64,000 nucleotides of DNA from Comamonas sp. lk. Its GTDB lineage: Bacteria > Pseudomonadota > Gammaproteobacteria > Burkholderiales > Burkholderiaceae_C. The DNA lies in assembly GCF_900564145.1 (NCBI RefSeq), contig NZ_UOOB01000002.1:248001-312000 (forward strand), in the 5' to 3' direction. The notes under the pieces were generated by a model. That model did not search any database and was not told the DNA's origin. It was given only the letters and a program-made list of their open reading frames with translations. The position numbers were made by a program, and so were the translations under genes. Positions 8,896 to 44,504 of the stretch are shown here, in pieces (within the stretch, counting starts at the first letter, position 1; each line of letters begins with the position of its first letter).

Positions 8896-9555
8896 TCAGC
8901 GGCCCGCCGGTCTGGGGCCCGGTATCAGCCACTGCAGCAAGGCAACCAGCAGCATGGCCGTGAGCACATCGAGAATATGGTGCTGATGCACCAGCAGGGT
9001 GGAAGCGCAGATCGCCAGCCCCCAGACCAGCAAAAAAGCACACAAGCCGTGGCGGCCGCGTGCCCACTGGGTGCGCACCATGGCCAGGCCCGTGGCCACG
9101 GTATAGACGATGTGCAAAGAGGGCAGAAGATTGTGCGGCTTGTCCACCGCGAACATCAGCGTGAAGATGCTGCGGTAAGGCTCGGCATCGGGCACCACCC
9201 GGTCAAAAGCCAGATTGGCCGGAAACAGAGCGAACACCAGGCCGCAAATCACCGTCGCCGTGACCTGGCGCTTGCCCAAAGCATCCACATCCCGGGCATC
9301 GACCAGCCAGATGGGCAAAAGAATGAAGATGAAAAAGGAAAAGTAGACCCAGATGAACTCCGGCACCAGCGGAATCAGCCCATCCCAGGGAGTGATGAAG
9401 TCATGCCGCAACAGCTGCCGCGATGCCAGCCAGTTGCTGGCCGGATAGATGGCGTAGAACACCACCATGGTGCAGATCGCCCAGAACAGCAGGCCACGGC
9501 CTTTGGCCGCAGGCGAAGATTTGGAAAAAGGCGGGGACGGGAGCATCGGGGCCAT
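8896..9555 (-). CDS. PAP2-like / inositol phosphorylceramide synthase-like membrane protein
   Basis: 219 residues with five or six hydrophobic segments. LLPSLHIVYTVA and the later HQHHILDVLTA are the second and third motifs of PAP2-superfamily phosphatases and IPC-synthase-like transferases (nucleophilic His plus His/Asp relay). The first classical motif KxxxxxxRP is not visible; AFDRVVPDAEPYR lies at that place. That gap favours the IPCS-like branch over a generic phosphatidate phosphatase. Likely site is the inner membrane with the active site facing the periplasm. Substrate unknown. A second ATG three codons in (9546) is an alternative start. Confidence 0.75.
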   Translation of the reverse strand: MAPMLPSPPFSKSSPAAKGRGLLFWAICTMVVFYAIYPASNWLASRQLLRHDFITPWDGLIPLVPEFIWVYFSFFIFILLPIWLVDARDVDALGKRQVTATVICGLVFALFPANLAFDRVVPDAEPYRSIFTLMFAVDKPHNLLPSLHIVYTVATGLAMVRTQWARGRHGLCAFLLVWGLAICASTLLVHQHHILDVLTAMLLVALLQWLIPGPRPAGR

Positions 9556-9656: not shown

Positions 9657-10100
9657 CTATTTGGCGGCAGGCTCTACCAGCAGCAACCAGCGCGCCATCA
9701 GCAAAGACTGCTCTTCGCTGATCTGCGGGTGGCGCGGCATGATGACATTGCCCCAGACGCCCACGCTGCCGCCGCGAATCTTGTCGGCCAGATAGGTCTC
9801 GGCATCCGCGCGATCACGGTATTTTTCGGCAATGCTCACAAAAGCCGGGCCCACAAACTTGCGATCCCAGCCATGGCAACGCATGCAGTCGGACTGTTCC
9901 ACCAGCTTCTTGCCAGCAGCCAGCTCAGGATGGCTCTGCACCAGCGCGTCCGCCGCCTGCTCGGCCATGCTGACCCGCATGATGCGCCAGCCGATATTTG
10001 CCACACCCAGCGCCGCGGCCAGCATGACCAGCCCGATCAGCCAGCCAATCCAGCGCGGTTTGGGCGGGTAGTTTTCTTCGTCGTCGATGGGATCAGTCAT
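9657..10100 (-). CDS. Membrane-anchored class I cytochrome c
   Basis: 147 residues. An N-terminal anchor (WIGWLIGLVMLAAALGVANIG, about 17-37) has no obvious cleavage site. A single haem site CMRCH follows (about residues 72-76), and GNVIMPRH gives the likely distal Met ligand (about 119). Size and motif spacing fit a c551/c552-like electron carrier. It would sit on the periplasmic face of the inner membrane. Its redox partner cannot be told from the neighbours (a PAP2-like gene and purH). A perfect inverted repeat lies 26 bases upstream of the start at 10126-10149. Confidence 0.85.
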   Translation of the reverse strand: MTDPIDDEENYPPKPRWIGWLIGLVMLAAALGVANIGWRIMRVSMAEQAADALVQSHPELAAGKKLVEQSDCMRCHGWDRKFVGPAFVSIAEKYRDRADAETYLADKIRGGSVGVWGNVIMPRHPQISEEQSLLMARWLLLVEPAAK

Positions 10101-39377: not shown

Positions 39378-39427
39378 GCGCCCACTTTCTGCCACCCGCC
39401 ACACTGGCGCGCAGCAGCGCATACCAA

Positions 39428-39462
39428 AGCCTGACGCAGAGAACTCTGCGTCAGGCTTTTTT
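39428..39462 (+). terminator. Terminator of miaB
   Basis: GCCTGACGCAGAG pairs with CTCTGCGTCAGGC around a very short loop and is followed by six T. Confidence 0.9.
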
Positions 39463-39608: not shown

Positions 39609-41945
39609 ATGAACCTACCAAGCCATGCAGCCGTTTTGCAAGGGGATGCCCTGCACGCCTTTATCGACCAGGCCCACGAGCTGCTCAACGATTACGACGA
39701 AGACCAGTCCGCCATCAATCGCGAGGACCGCATGGCGGCTGCTGCAGAGTTGATGGAGCAGCAGAGCTTTGCCCCCGCCAATGTCAACGATCTGGAGCGC
39801 GTGCACGATTTCTGGCTGATGCTGGACAAGCCCGAGATTGCCAATCGCTTTTTGCAGACGCATCGCCAAAGCGCCTTGCAGTCCGACGAGCGCCGCCCGG
39901 CCGATGCACAGGTGCGCATTGCGCTCAGCGATATCCAGAGCCGTCTGGGCTTTGACAAGGCATCGGCCATCGCGCTGCTCCTGCCCGCAGCCCAGGCCAT
40001 TGCCCAGCTGCCGGCGGACATCGATACCGATCGCTACTGGCACGGCTGGCAGTGGATGACCGACGAGGTCCAGGCCTGGGAAATCGCCGAGCTGGGCGTG
40101 GATCTGCACCGCGCCCGCGAACGCGCCAACCCGGACAACGAGGCCCATCTGGCCCATGGCGATGCCATGGCCCTGGTGCGCAAGGCCGAGCTGGCCCAGA
40201 AACGCGGCAATGCCGGCGCGGCCACCGGCCATGTGCAAAACGCCATCCAGACGCTGCGCGATGCCGCTCCCGAGCAGGAGGTGGATTTTGAACAGTGGAT
40301 GGAGCTGGCCGACCGCGCCCTGCCCGTTGCCACGGCCAGTCTGCCCTCGCTGCTCATGGCCTGCGAGCAGCAATTGCAGCGCACGGAAAACCCGCCGCCC
40401 TCGCCAGCCATCAAGGCCCATCGCAAAGTCAGGATTGTGCGACTGCAGGCCCAGGCCTGTGCGCTGGCAGGCCAGCTGGACGCCGCTTTGCAGCTGGCCC
40501 CGCTGGGCCGCGTGAGCCTGACCGATGACCAGGGCGATCCTTTCAGCGCCTTGCATCTGGAATGGCTGATGCAGGCCGACCGTCTGGACGAGGCCGCGGC
40601 CCTGGCGCTGGAGAGCGTGATGCACGCCCGCCCCCTCTCTGCCGTCGCCGCTTGCAAACTGGCGCAGCAGCGCTTTGACAGCGATGTCGATGCCGACACC
40701 GGCCGCGCCATCACCTGGGCGCTGATTCTTGCCATGGTCCACGCAGATACCGATATGCACTATCTGTTTGCGCAGGAGAAGATGCCAAGCCGTAACGCCG
40801 ATTTCTATCTGGATTTCGTACGCGCACGCGAGCCGCAGAACATCCTGCTCGCCCTGACGCAGGGCATGCGCCATGCCGCCAAGCGCCAGCTGGAACAAGC
40901 CTTGCCCTTGCTAGAGCAATCCGTGGGCCAGCGCCCGGATCTGGCCGACGGCGACAAGCTGTCCGCGCTCTGGGCGGCACGCTTTGCCGTGCTGCCGCTG
41001 GAAGAAGCGCTGGCTCGCCCTTTCCCCGAGGCCTACGGCGCCCATTGGTGCTATGCCGTCGGGGTGACGCTGGACCACGATGAAGAACTGGCCCCGCTGC
41101 TGGGCGGCAAGAAAAAGCTGCCGCCCAGCGAAGTGCGCAGCCAGCTGGCCTTGCGCTACTACGAAGAAAGCTTGCGACGCTTTGAGAGCTTCTGGTCTAC
41201 GGGCCAGGGAGCCTTCAAGGATGCCGATGTGCATGTGTACTCCATGCTGTGCAACAACCTGGCGATCAAATACCGCTTTCAGAATCGCTACGACGAAGCC
41301 GCTGCGCTGCACCACAAAGGCCTGGCCAGCAGCCCGTTTGCCGAGCATCACAACAGCCTGGTGTGGTGCGCGATTGGTAAGGAGGACTACAGCCAGACGG
41401 TGATGGAGGCCGAGCGCCTGTGGCACTTTGCGCAGGAGCATGGCTATGGCCGCCATGATCCGCCCCGCTACCTGCCCTCTGTCGCTTACGCGCTGTACCG
41501 GCTGGACCGCGATGACGAAATCAGCATCTGGACCGAGCGCCTGGATCAATGGTTTCACGAGCTTGACGAAGCCGAACAGCGCAGCGAACGCCGTGACTAT
41601 CTGGCCGCACTGATGGCCATGTTGGATTTTTACTCCATCACCCGCCCCGAGCTGGTGCTGCCACGCCTGCGCAGCCACCAGCAGGAAGTCATTGCCCTAC
41701 GGGACTGCTACCCGCTACGCCGGCTGGCCTGTGCACTGGAAGCCTATCCCGAGCTGCTGGAGGAAGCCCTGGCCCTGCACCAGCAAGCCCAAAGCTATCT
41801 GGACAAGGACAACGACGGCGACGAGAGCGAGCGCCGCGTATCGCGCGAGTGCATTGAGCGCACCGAACGCAAGCTGGCCGAACGTGAGGCTGCGGCCAAT
41901 GGACAAGCGGCTTCCGGCCGCAAGCCATGGTGGAAATTTTGGTGA
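39609..41945 (+). CDS. Large uncharacterised helical-repeat (TPR-like) protein, first gene of a three-gene unit
   Basis: 778 residues, soluble, with no signal peptide or membrane segment. The sequence is alanine- and leucine-rich helical throughout. Many helix pairs look like degenerate TPR units, for example DEAAALHHKGLASSPF near residue 575 and QLEQALPLLEQSVGQRPDL near 430. N-terminal segments are acidic, and the C terminus is charged and ends in PWWKFW. I do not recognise a named family beyond TPR-like architecture. Its last 19 bases overlap the next gene, so expression is coupled. It starts 147 bases after the miaB terminator and presumably has its own promoter. Confidence 0.75.
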   Translation: MNLPSHAAVLQGDALHAFIDQAHELLNDYDEDQSAINREDRMAAAAELMEQQSFAPANVNDLERVHDFWLMLDKPEIANRFLQTHRQSALQSDERRPADAQVRIALSDIQSRLGFDKASAIALLLPAAQAIAQLPADIDTDRYWHGWQWMTDEVQAWEIAELGVDLHRARERANPDNEAHLAHGDAMALVRKAELAQKRGNAGAATGHVQNAIQTLRDAAPEQEVDFEQWMELADRALPVATASLPSLLMACEQQLQRTENPPPSPAIKAHRKVRIVRLQAQACALAGQLDAALQLAPLGRVSLTDDQGDPFSALHLEWLMQADRLDEAAALALESVMHARPLSAVAACKLAQQRFDSDVDADTGRAITWALILAMVHADTDMHYLFAQEKMPSRNADFYLDFVRAREPQNILLALTQGMRHAAKRQLEQALPLLEQSVGQRPDLADGDKLSALWAARFAVLPLEEALARPFPEAYGAHWCYAVGVTLDHDEELAPLLGGKKKLPPSEVRSQLALRYYEESLRRFESFWSTGQGAFKDADVHVYSMLCNNLAIKYRFQNRYDEAAALHHKGLASSPFAEHHNSLVWCAIGKEDYSQTVMEAERLWHFAQEHGYGRHDPPRYLPSVAYALYRLDRDDEISIWTERLDQWFHELDEAEQRSERRDYLAALMAMLDFYSITRPELVLPRLRSHQQEVIALRDCYPLRRLACALEAYPELLEEALALHQQAQSYLDKDNDGDESERRVSRECIERTERKLAEREAAANGQAASGRKPWWKFW

Positions 41946-43129
41946 GTCAAACCCAAGCCAACACAGCCGCCGCCAGCGCCTATCAGGCCCGCGATGTGGT
42001 CAATGCTCCAGCCATCAAGCAGGCCATAGCCCAGCGCAGCGCCGCACGCGGCGATGCGCCCGAGATTTCGGCCTGGCTGGCCAACCATTTCTACCGCCAT
42101 GTGATTGGCAATCTGCAGGCCGAGCCCCCTGTGCTGCAACGCATTGCCAATGCCCATGACTTGCAGCAGCTGCTGGGCCGCCAGGAAGCACCAGCCTGGG
42201 CGCTGGAGCGGCTTGGCAAAAAGGCCATGGGCATTGATCTGCCCGACCTGTGGTGGATAGAGCCGGATGCAGCCATGGTGCTGGCGCTGGAGACACGCCT
42301 GGTGGAGTTTCTCTCCACCCGCAAAGGCACTTCGCTGCAAGGCAAGCTGCAGCGCGTGAACTGCCCTCAGGCCCTGGCGCGCTGGACGCTGGAGCATCTG
42401 GCTTTTCAGAAAAAACAGAGCACGGGCTGGCTGGAGCATTCCAAGAACGCCGTGCACGGCATTGTGCGCGGGCAGCTGGGCATCTTTGTGGAGTTCGACG
42501 CCAAGAGCCCGCAGCTGCGCCAGGAAATGGCTTATGAGAGCCAGATGATGGGCCATTGCGTGGGGCAGTTCTCGGACCGCAAGCACTTCAACGGCGGCTA
42601 TGGCGAGCATTACGCCAGCGGCCTGGAGTCCGGCAAGATGCGCTTGTTCAGCTACCGCACGGGCTCGGCCCAGCCGCGCATCACCGTCAATGCCGTGATG
42701 CAAAAAGACGGCAGTCTGCAGATCGAGCAGATCAAGGGCAAGCAAAACCGCCCCCCGATTGCGCGCTATGCGCCCGATGTCGTAGCCCTGCTCAACCACC
42801 TGCCGCTCAACGACGAAGCGCCGCACGACGCACTGACCATGGGTATTGTGCGTCGCCCGCCCGAGATCTTGGCCGAGGACTCGCAGCTGACGCCCTGGTG
42901 CACCGTGGCCGAGTTGCACAGCGAGAGCGAGCAGCTGTGGCTGCTCAACCGCCATCCGGATCTGCTGCCCCAGCTTCCTCTGCGTACACCGCTGATGCAA
43001 TGGATGGTGGCGGCTCGCAAGGATGCCGTGGACAGCGAAGTCATAGAGCGCATGCCCAAATCTGCAGCGCTGCAGCAGGCACTGCAACTGGCCCGCAAGC
43101 GGCCTTTGCGTGCAGGAGGGCGGGCATGA
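41927..43129 (+). CDS. PcfJ-like domain protein, second gene of the three-gene unit
   Basis: 400 residues from ATG 41927. GTG 41942 is an attractive alternative because it overlaps the previous stop as GTGA. The central region (about 200-275) has SQMMGHCVGQFSDRKHF, then GLESGKMRLFSYRT and PRITVNAVM. This is the order of the PcfJ motif (M-x-HCV ... S-L/F-R ... P-x-x-T-x-x-V), seen in proteins of plasmids, phages and accessory regions. The motif biochemistry is unknown. The N-terminal 190 residues are helical. The C terminus overlaps the next gene by four bases (ATGA). Confidence 0.72.
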   Translation: MVEILVSQTQANTAAASAYQARDVVNAPAIKQAIAQRSAARGDAPEISAWLANHFYRHVIGNLQAEPPVLQRIANAHDLQQLLGRQEAPAWALERLGKKAMGIDLPDLWWIEPDAAMVLALETRLVEFLSTRKGTSLQGKLQRVNCPQALARWTLEHLAFQKKQSTGWLEHSKNAVHGIVRGQLGIFVEFDAKSPQLRQEMAYESQMMGHCVGQFSDRKHFNGGYGEHYASGLESGKMRLFSYRTGSAQPRITVNAVMQKDGSLQIEQIKGKQNRPPIARYAPDVVALLNHLPLNDEAPHDALTMGIVRRPPEILAEDSQLTPWCTVAELHSESEQLWLLNRHPDLLPQLPLRTPLMQWMVAARKDAVDSEVIERMPKSAALQQALQLARKRPLRAGGRA

Positions 43130-43845
43130 GTGGCTGGTGGATTTTTCTGGGTCTGCTGCTGGCCTGGTTCTTCTGGATGCTGCGCAGAGGCTTTAGCAAC
43201 CTGAAGGAAGCCCAAAACCGCGGCGACATGATCAGCTACCAGGCGGGCAGCGCCGAGCGCAACTGGGCGCTGGCGCTGGCCCATCCCACGGCCTATCACG
43301 CCATGCAAGGCGGCTTTGCCAGCCAACTCCAGGGTGCCGACGAAGCCCTGGCCAGGCAGCTGCGCCCCATGGTGCTGCACCATCTGGGCCTGCGCACCGA
43401 TCTTGGCGACGAGCAGATACGCCTGCAATTGCCGGATGCCATGCGTCAGCGCTGGTTCATGCTGGATCTGCAACGCCTGCACCGCAGCGACAATCCCCGC
43501 GCGGCCATGGCATTTGCCTGCGCCCGGGTCACGTTTTTTGTGCGCTGCGCCTATTTGCTGGAATGGGTGGACGAAGAGACGCACTGGGACGTCCTGATGC
43601 TCAACGCCCAGCGCGCCCAGCAGTGCTTTGACAGCTGGCTGAGCTTCGGCCAGGCCTATGCCCAAGGCCGAATCCAGTGGCAGGCACAGGGCCGCTCCGA
43701 TGTGCTGGGCAAGGCCTTCACCCCCGAGGAAGTGGCCCAGTGGGTCACCGAAGCCAAGCACCCCTGGCATGCCATGGACTGGCATCTGCCGCTGACCGCA
43801 GCGCCTGCGCCGCCGGCCGAGCACCCGGCCCAGCTTGCGGCTTGA
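43126..43845 (+). CDS. DUF1266 membrane-anchored protein, third gene of the three-gene unit
   Basis: 239 residues from ATG 43126. An N-terminal membrane segment (WWIFLGLLLAWFFWML, 4-19) anchors a cytosolic domain. The C-terminal half shows the DUF1266 pattern VRCAYLLEWVDEETHWDVL, then QQCFDSWLSFGQAYAQGRIQW. In E. coli, DUF1266 proteins YbeR and YbeU lie in a cluster with J-domain and Sel1-repeat proteins. Function is unknown. A proline- and alanine-rich tail ends the protein. A bidirectional terminator closes the unit. Confidence 0.78.
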   Translation: MSGWWIFLGLLLAWFFWMLRRGFSNLKEAQNRGDMISYQAGSAERNWALALAHPTAYHAMQGGFASQLQGADEALARQLRPMVLHHLGLRTDLGDEQIRLQLPDAMRQRWFMLDLQRLHRSDNPRAAMAFACARVTFFVRCAYLLEWVDEETHWDVLMLNAQRAQQCFDSWLSFGQAYAQGRIQWQAQGRSDVLGKAFTPEEVAQWVTEAKHPWHAMDWHLPLTAAPAPPAEHPAQLAA

Positions 43846-43892: not shown

Positions 43893-43917
43893 AAAGGGAC
43901 TGCCGTTCAGTCCCTTT
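43893..43917. terminator. Terminator between the DUF1266 gene and the NlpC/P60 gene
   Basis: AAAGGGACT pairs with AGTCCCTTT around a seven-base loop. T- and A-rich flanks allow use in both directions. Confidence 0.75.
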
Positions 43918-43934: not shown

Positions 43935-44504
43935 TCATGAAAAAATGCTGCGTGCCTCGGTAAAGCGCTTGGCAAAGTAGACATTGTCCATGCGCACCCG
44001 CTGCACCGTACCGCCGGAAGACGGCGCATGCACAAACTGGCCATTGCCCACAAAAATGCCCATATGCGAGTGAGGCTTGCCCAGGGTGTTGAAAAACACA
44101 AAGTCGCCACGCATCAGGGAGCGCACCTCCACGGGGCTGCTGACCTGCGCCCACTGCGATGTGGTACGCGGCAGGCGACTGGCGGTGATCCCGCCCACCG
44201 CCCACTGGATCAGGCCGCTGCAGTCAAAGCCGCCTTCGGGGGAGTTGCCGCCATAGGTATAAGGCGTGTTGACCACCAGCATGGTGCGCGCCAGCAGGGG
44301 TTCGCGCAGATCATCGGCCAGATTGAGCGCCTGCGCAGAACCCACACCACCGCCTTGAGCTGCAGGCCGAGGTCGGCTCTTGGGAGCTGACGAACAAGCT
44401 GCGAGCAGGCCGGCAAGAGAGGCGGCCAGCACCAGCGCGCAGTGTCTGCGCCCGGCGCTGAAGTCAGTCATGGACATCTTGGCTTGTGCTTTCATGCGGG
44501 CCAT
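43935..44504 (-). CDS. NlpC/P60-family peptidoglycan hydrolase, lipoprotein
   Basis: 189 residues. The signal sequence ends with lipobox LLAACSS. The C-terminal NlpC/P60 domain (about 75-185) has the catalytic Cys in GGFDCSGLIQW, the His in SHMGIFVG and the third polar residue in FVHAPSSGG. It should cut D-Glu-mDAP-type bonds in peptidoglycan stem peptides from the outer-membrane side. Several N-terminal Met codons (44504, 44495, 44477, 44471) are possible starts; the later ones give a normal-length signal peptide. Confidence 0.88.
   Translation of the reverse strand: MARMKAQAKMSMTDFSAGRRHCALVLAASLAGLLAACSSAPKSRPRPAAQGGGVGSAQALNLADDLREPLLARTMLVVNTPYTYGGNSPEGGFDCSGLIQWAVGGITASRLPRTTSQWAQVSSPVEVRSLMRGDFVFFNTLGKPHSHMGIFVGNGQFVHAPSSGGTVQRVRMDNVYFAKRFTEARSIFS

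Follow-up and report, generated by a model that had tools for sequence, protein, structure and literature searches.

Three overlapping genes of Comamonas sp. lk, bracketed by two hairpins within a window of 64,000 nucleotides (the whole stretch of DNA that was analysed), almost certainly constitute one functional unit. The window spans C2:248001-312000 of a 4.9-Mb genome. All three are encoded on the forward strand. The first open reading frame, ORF1 (39609-41945, 778 residues), encodes a helical-repeat protein of the tetratricopeptide repeat (TPR) type, ORF2 (41942-43129 from a GTG start, 395 residues; 400 residues from an alternative ATG at 41927) a PcfJ-like protein, and ORF3 (43126-43845, 239 residues) a DUF1266 protein. 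ORF1 and ORF2 overlap by 4 bases when the GTG is used, an arrangement also seen in related loci, or by 19 bases when the ATG is used, and ORF3 overlaps ORF2 by the 4 bases ATGA; the overlaps given in the initial annotation of this DNA are confirmed by these coordinates. In the favoured reading, to which a probability of roughly 0.4 is assigned, the products would form one cytoplasmic, membrane-held complex of a TPR protein and a protein resembling GCN5-related N-acetyltransferases (GNATs), similar in plan to NatA and modifying proteins. New in this analysis are the exchange of a partner, the gene fusions, a cassette in E. coli, the tail of ORF1, and the predicted GNAT-like fold of the PcfJ core.

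The conservation of the unit is observed directly. Named genomes were scanned with the ORF2 alignment alone, giving 79 loci, which include many close relatives and are not 79 independent events. They come among others from Comamonas, Delftia, Acidovorax, Burkholderia, Ralstonia, Cupriavidus, Trinickia, Pseudomonas, Zoogloeaceae, Tahibacter, Chitinilyticum, and a Desulfovibrionaceae bin; one of them is that of Comamonas testosteroni ATCC 11996 (L017). A DUF1266 gene lies 3′ of ORF2 in 78/79 loci, the exception (L050) being a contig end, and the TPR gene lies 5′ of it in 73/79, the exceptions being contig ends (L012, L077, and L083) and a DUF4034 form (L076, L084, and L086). The co-occurrence of the three genes across genera, which the initial annotation had proposed to check, is thus found. 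Junction gaps are short, and 4-base overlaps, as judged with start codons chosen by script, occur at 24/73 first and 28/71 second junctions. Because the order recurs across genera and the 4-base overlaps recur, the arrangement is more than chance. In 150 Comamonadaceae genomes, ORF2 gives eight matches, six of them substantial; the ORF1 gene adjoins all six and DUF1266 five, the sixth lying at a contig end. A search of the same genomes with ORF1 also gives eight matches, namely, the same six and two weak ones, and one further genome carries DUF1266 without ORF2. The pairwise locus distances of the three proteins correlate at 0.91-0.97 (64 loci, incomplete ones excluded), which, as no species tree enters the comparison, speaks for co-inheritance rather than interaction. 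At least 11 of the Comamonas and Delftia loci have an upstream gene whose beginning resembles the miaB of the window, and other loci have different neighbours.

The homologues of ORF2 and ORF3 are joined in a single reading frame in 7/79 loci. The five fused loci of the TPR type fall on about four branches of the ORF2 tree (L041; L045; L051 with L057; L073) with unfused relatives interspersed, L041, L045, and L073 being long branches. In the fused loci L041, L045, L051, and L073, the most hydrophobic stretch is situated between the two domains. A further observation concerns the repeat protein. In three loci the TPR gene is replaced by a downstream DUF4034 repeat gene, and the same order PcfJ-DUF1266-DUF4034 is present in Salmonella and E. 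coli. The TPR and DUF4034 genes were compared as possible homologues by profile and rejected (probability 0.8%). The repeat partner is exchangeable, and therefore the core pair consists of the PcfJ-like and the DUF1266 protein, to which one large helical-repeat protein of either type is added. Conserved order, fusions, correlated divergence, and the hydrophobic N-terminus of ORF3 together uphold the dedicated set of three that had been proposed at first.

The cassette is carried by 297/5426 E. coli genomes, single-copy and chromosomal, each of the 297 with a match that covers 80% or more of the stretch of three genes at an identity of 95% or more. In the two regions read, it is located between yegQ and yegP together with one further small gene. 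It is missing from K-12 at that site, where yegP and trhP, which we take to be yegQ, adjoin. The cassettes at L126:7683-11726, L127:7683-11732, and L124:6968-11008 lie beside baeSR-mdtD-mdtC and yegQ/yegP in E. coli and beside baeSR in Salmonella records. These cassettes share with the window the order of the ORF2 and ORF3 homologues and a large helical-repeat third gene, but their repeat protein is of the DUF4034 type and lies downstream, and those read are without the W-W-x-x-W tail of ORF1. STM2133, an uncertain member of the cassette that carries no weight here, is named among hypermotile Salmonella mutants in a published study (PMC4219756).

ORF2 is matched by PcfJ (PF14284) with an E-value of 0.0048 and 17.2 bits, under the curated cut-off of 25 bits, and its core alone reaches 19.0 bits. 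Related cores match PcfJ in 37/37 cases at E <= 10 (best 7e-5), and a Foldseek search against BFVD gives four best matches which are all named PcfJ-like phage proteins (best E 1.9e-9). ORF2 is PcfJ-like by its HC motif (H205-C206-V207) and by this structural match, though it stays below the Pfam cut-off; the PcfJ-type HCV motif of the initial annotation is indeed present, the Pfam match itself being weak. With the PcfJ proteins of plasmids and phages, ORF2 has in common the HC motif, the basic KGKQN loop, and the predicted structures. It differs from them by its low Pfam score, its helical N-terminal part, in which the motif Y-x-x-R-x-x-x-N-A is conserved, its constant partner genes, and its chromosomal location. 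Distant PcfJ-like proteins (24-34% identity) are also encoded by 12 viral contigs (L128-L139). Ten of these were aligned; the eight that reach the HC region all have HCV, KGKQNRP, which was the search pattern, is present in 10/10, and the G-Y-G region differs. In another locus (L008, G122:C20:141234-141329) a 32-residue match covers the N-terminal region of ORF2 only (model positions 11-42), within an open frame of 103 residues.

The PcfJ-like core (residues ~171-321; 42452-42904) probably has a GNAT-like fold, as far as a predicted model can tell. The model of the segment 42422-42967 is of high confidence (predicted local distance difference test, pLDDT, 93.5; predicted template-modelling score, pTM, 0.89), and its elements fit the GNAT order b0-b1-a1-a2-b2-b3-b4-a3-b5-a4-b6, with an additional short helix before b5, an additional last helix, and only 3 residues each in b5 and b6. 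The GNAT superfamily accounts for 48-50 of the 50 matches listed in each of four structural listings, with the same element order. The GNAT element order and the P-loop consensus Q/R-x-x-G-x-G/A are given in the section available of a published account, in which proven GNATs with atypical P-loops also occur (PMC4964394). The invariant loop Q263-x-K-G-K-Q-N269 (42728-42748) begins at the end of strand 4 and continues beyond it, close to where GNATs have their P-loop. With the superfamily, which includes FemX and leucyl/phenylalanyl transferase, the modelled core shares the strand and helix order and a Q-x-x-G at the end of strand 4. KGKQNRP(P) served as search pattern for the 79-locus and viral sets, so that the invariance of KGKQN in these sets is in part a product of the search itself; an alignment of 24 rows comes from a separate search. 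The pair H205-C206 (42554-42559), situated between core helices 1 and 2, is invariant in three alignments (24, 37, and 31 rows) and provides candidate active-site residues. That ORF2 acts as a transferase is a tentative suggestion, for which the odds are clearly below even.

ORF1 is, by repeat recognition at the level of its family, a TPR protein. With the window sequence alone the Pfam TPR models give no significant match (E 0.09), and a comparison of the family profile with designed TPR chains gives E 4e-11. TPR_1 is matched by 21/43 family members at E <= 0.01, and the clearest repeats are located at profile positions near 542-591 and 693-740. The 778-residue helical-repeat protein of the initial annotation is therefore recognisable through its family profile and not through the single sequence. 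The closest named match is that of Comamonas aquatilis, with 97% identity. In two loci the gene is split into two frames (L011, ~9798-9814, Comamonas suwonensis; L056, ~9518-9522, Pseudomonas donghuensis), by sequence error or decay.

ORF1 ends in the tail KPWWKFW (residues 772-778; 41922-41942), preceded by about 35 poorly conserved residues. Its W-W-x-x-W pattern is present in 76/81 ORFs of the family and in 0/12,698 other stop-to-stop ORFs of the same loci; the five family members without it are two broken genes and three with changed residues. Identity in the tail columns (43 rows) amounts to 93% for W774, 100% for W775, and 98% for W778, and averages 23% for residues 735-768. An origin as by-product of the overlap with ORF2 was rejected, given that the tail is kept in 47/51 loci with an overlap of 4 bases or less or a gap and in 21/22 with more. 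Since the tail is kept whatever the overlap, it is a protein feature. A C-terminus so rich in tryptophan and basic might fit into a partner protein or rest at the surface of the membrane. The DNA pattern of the tail occurs at 66 places in the own genome, as compared to 15 for the reversed pattern. One of four such places opened is a long lipoprotein-like ORF which ends in KTWWKLW, almost identical to the tail of ORF1 (L120:3103-4083; own genome C1:2976602-2977582), and is presumably BamD-like.

The DUF1266 domain of ORF3, as announced in the initial annotation, is clear (PF06889, E 3.2e-14, 53.9 bits, cut-off 27), the matched part comprising residues 119-219 (43480-43782), and the N-terminal anchor is probable. 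The first residues (43126-43182) form a hydrophobic segment (mean Kyte-Doolittle hydropathy over 19 residues 1.70 at residue 1) followed by R-R. In 66/71 unfused ORF3 homologues, a 15-residue stretch with a mean of at least 1.6 is found inside the first 55 residues. When 19 residues are averaged instead, the N-terminal stretch is the strongest one in no more than 33/71, because a helix of the DUF1266 domain is equally hydrophobic. Judged from these hydropathy profiles, it is probable that the N-terminus of ORF3 anchors the set in the membrane. Other literature on DUF1266 concerns, in the part available, YnjI and an H-NS-regulated gene and has no bearing on the trio. In another family of the class, DUF1266 matches twice in each of several open frames, 765-839 residues long (L143/L150, L145/L151, and L146/L153).

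In the favoured reading, ORF3 would serve as inner-membrane anchor, with a hydrophobic N-terminal helix and a cytosolic DUF1266 domain, and would bind ORF2. The loop Q263-x-K-G-K-Q-N of ORF2 would hold a phosphate-bearing donor, either an acyl-coenzyme A or, on the model of FemX and leucyl/phenylalanyl transferase, an aminoacyl-tRNA, with H205/C206 at the acceptor side. The TPR solenoid of ORF1, with its W-W-x-x-W tail, would pick the target and present it to ORF2, like Naa15 does with Naa10. The complex would thereby modify, under certain conditions, a protein at the cytosolic membrane face. Complex formation, donor, catalysis, and target are the parts of this model that we infer. NatA consists of the large TPR subunit Naa15 and the GNAT enzyme Naa10 and is eukaryotic and ribosome-bound, as stated in the part available of a published source (PMC12830823). 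The likeness lies in the combination of a large TPR subunit with a smaller one of GNAT fold, which is a prediction for the trio. The trio is, in contrast, bacterial and probably membrane-held; the likeness is one of plan, and no sequence relation is expected.

The main rival is membrane protein quality control, a serious but rather unlikely explanation, in which the trio would be a proteostasis module like HscC-DjlB/DjlC-YbeR/YbeU. The repeats would bind unfolded cytosolic parts of membrane proteins, DUF1266 would be an adaptor, and the PcfJ-like domain would bind rather than catalyse. TPR solenoids are common client binders. The comparison with the E. coli YbeR/YbeU cluster made in the initial annotation is borne out, as ybeR shares 4 bases with djlB, and ybeU with djlC, in the neighbourhood of hscC and of Sel1-repeat genes. 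There, too, a DUF1266 gene overlaps the gene of a larger protein, and the pair is membrane-attached. Moreover, the E. coli cassette adjoins baeR-baeS-mdtD-mdtC, and efflux pumps are proposed as possible HscC clients in the part available of a review. However, in the E. coli set the anchor belongs to the J-protein, and the DUF1266 protein is by eye without N-terminal hydrophobic segment. The window has a PcfJ-like protein instead: a J domain is found neither in the three proteins nor among the families which an alignment of 43 ORF1 members matches, the conserved trio contains no Hsp70 gene, and ORF1 was rejected as a homologue of DjlB/DjlC (profile probability 0.1%). Quality control also leaves the invariant HC and KGKQN of ORF2 unexplained.

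Several observations weigh against a GNAT-like enzyme. The P-loop consensus is incomplete, as Q263-I-K-G266-K-Q268 has Q in the sixth position; E-values and Z-scores against GNAT structures are weak, with no decisive score; and sequence relatives of known structure were found neither for the core profile (E <= 10) nor for ORF2 and ORF3 (E <= 1). ORF2 has no detected sequence similarity to GNATs and carries in addition the HC pair, which, placed as it is after helix 1 and before helix 2, is to our knowledge no GNAT hallmark. According to the explanation built on the weak scores, the lack of a solved relative, and the incomplete P-loop, the likeness is that of a common alpha/beta arrangement, PcfJ forms a fold family of its own, and ORF2 connects the repeat protein with DUF1266 as an adaptor without catalytic activity. 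This is less likely still, considering the near-uniform superfamily of the structural matches and their shared element order.

The setting of the locus bears on the third explanation. ORF2 is present in 36/53 genomes of the host genus and in 3/299 of a phylum-wide sample, all three of the host genus. DUF1266 occurs in 11/299 of that sample, in eight without an ORF2 match, and must therefore have other uses. In the ORF2 tree, which carries a long-branch warning, L079 of Pseudomonas and L040 of Tahibacter are placed among Comamonadaceae, and this suggests transfer. Against a plain housekeeping role, the alternative considered in the initial annotation, speaks this patchy occurrence in the phylum sample and in E. 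coli. None of the three proteins has a match in PHROGs or PADLOC at E <= 1, and matches are found in 0/50,697 phage and 8/72,556 plasmid records. Neighbours were surveyed as 111 proteins from 30/79 loci, hand-picked for diversity and called with a crude gene caller. Among them 29 PADLOC models match at E <= 1e-5, none in more than one protein, and 13 of the 25 models listed are methyltransferases. Among the 25 Pfam families listed of 139, NLPC_P60 is found in 4 proteins and SRP54, miaB-type, LysR, and Zeta_toxin in 3 each, the Zeta_toxin matches being weak (best 1.6e-7); one T6SS (type VI secretion system) protein is matched. PcfJ proteins take their name from a conjugative plasmid. A PcfJ-like protein that binds nucleic acid, in a trio that senses or blocks the DNA of plasmids or phages at the membrane, would agree with that name, with the phage proteins and viral contigs described above, with the very basic core loop, with the all-or-nothing E. 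coli cassette at the site read, and with the Zeta_toxin and T6SS neighbours, but it is improbable given the lack of PADLOC matches for the trio and of a recurrent defence neighbour, the scarcity in phage and plasmid records, and the frequency in the genus. On the same grounds, neither the mobile nor the conflict setting suggested in the initial annotation finds support. The idea of a complex is strengthened by the analysis and that of conflict is weakened.

Both structures said to bracket the genes exist. Upstream, an intrinsic terminator of the forward strand lies 3′ of miaB (39426-39459; 15-pair stem, fold -26.8 kcal/mol, z -7.1). A closing hairpin, with strand not assigned, lies 3′ of ORF3 (43893-43917; 10-pair stem read from the sequence, fold -18.1, z -5.6). 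It was not listed by the terminator scan, whose total of 8 sites against a shuffle mean of 7.3 represents no excess. The hairpin is also situated just past the end of a convergent ORF (43935-44504) and may be shared by both sides as terminator.

No description of the trio was found in the searches made of open-access literature, and among the papers listed there for PcfJ together with GNAT acetyltransferases, one contains PcfJ, as an entry of a gene-family table. PcfJ, DUF1266, and DUF4034 have so far been families without known function; they now become parts of one module and of one testable complex, whose central part gains a likely fold and candidate residues from the predicted model. As the cassette is carried by a minority of E. 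coli genomes and is missing from the K-12 site, the question is open to ordinary genetics. A wider proposal, also rather unlikely, is that PcfJ represents an unrecognised branch of GNAT-fold transferases and that the operon is a bacterial, membrane-held counterpart of NatA in plan, which modifies selected proteins at the cytosolic side of the inner membrane and whose target-selecting repeat subunit, TPR or DUF4034, can be exchanged. Should the GNAT reading be true, it would give a first idea of the role of PcfJ proteins in plasmids and phages.

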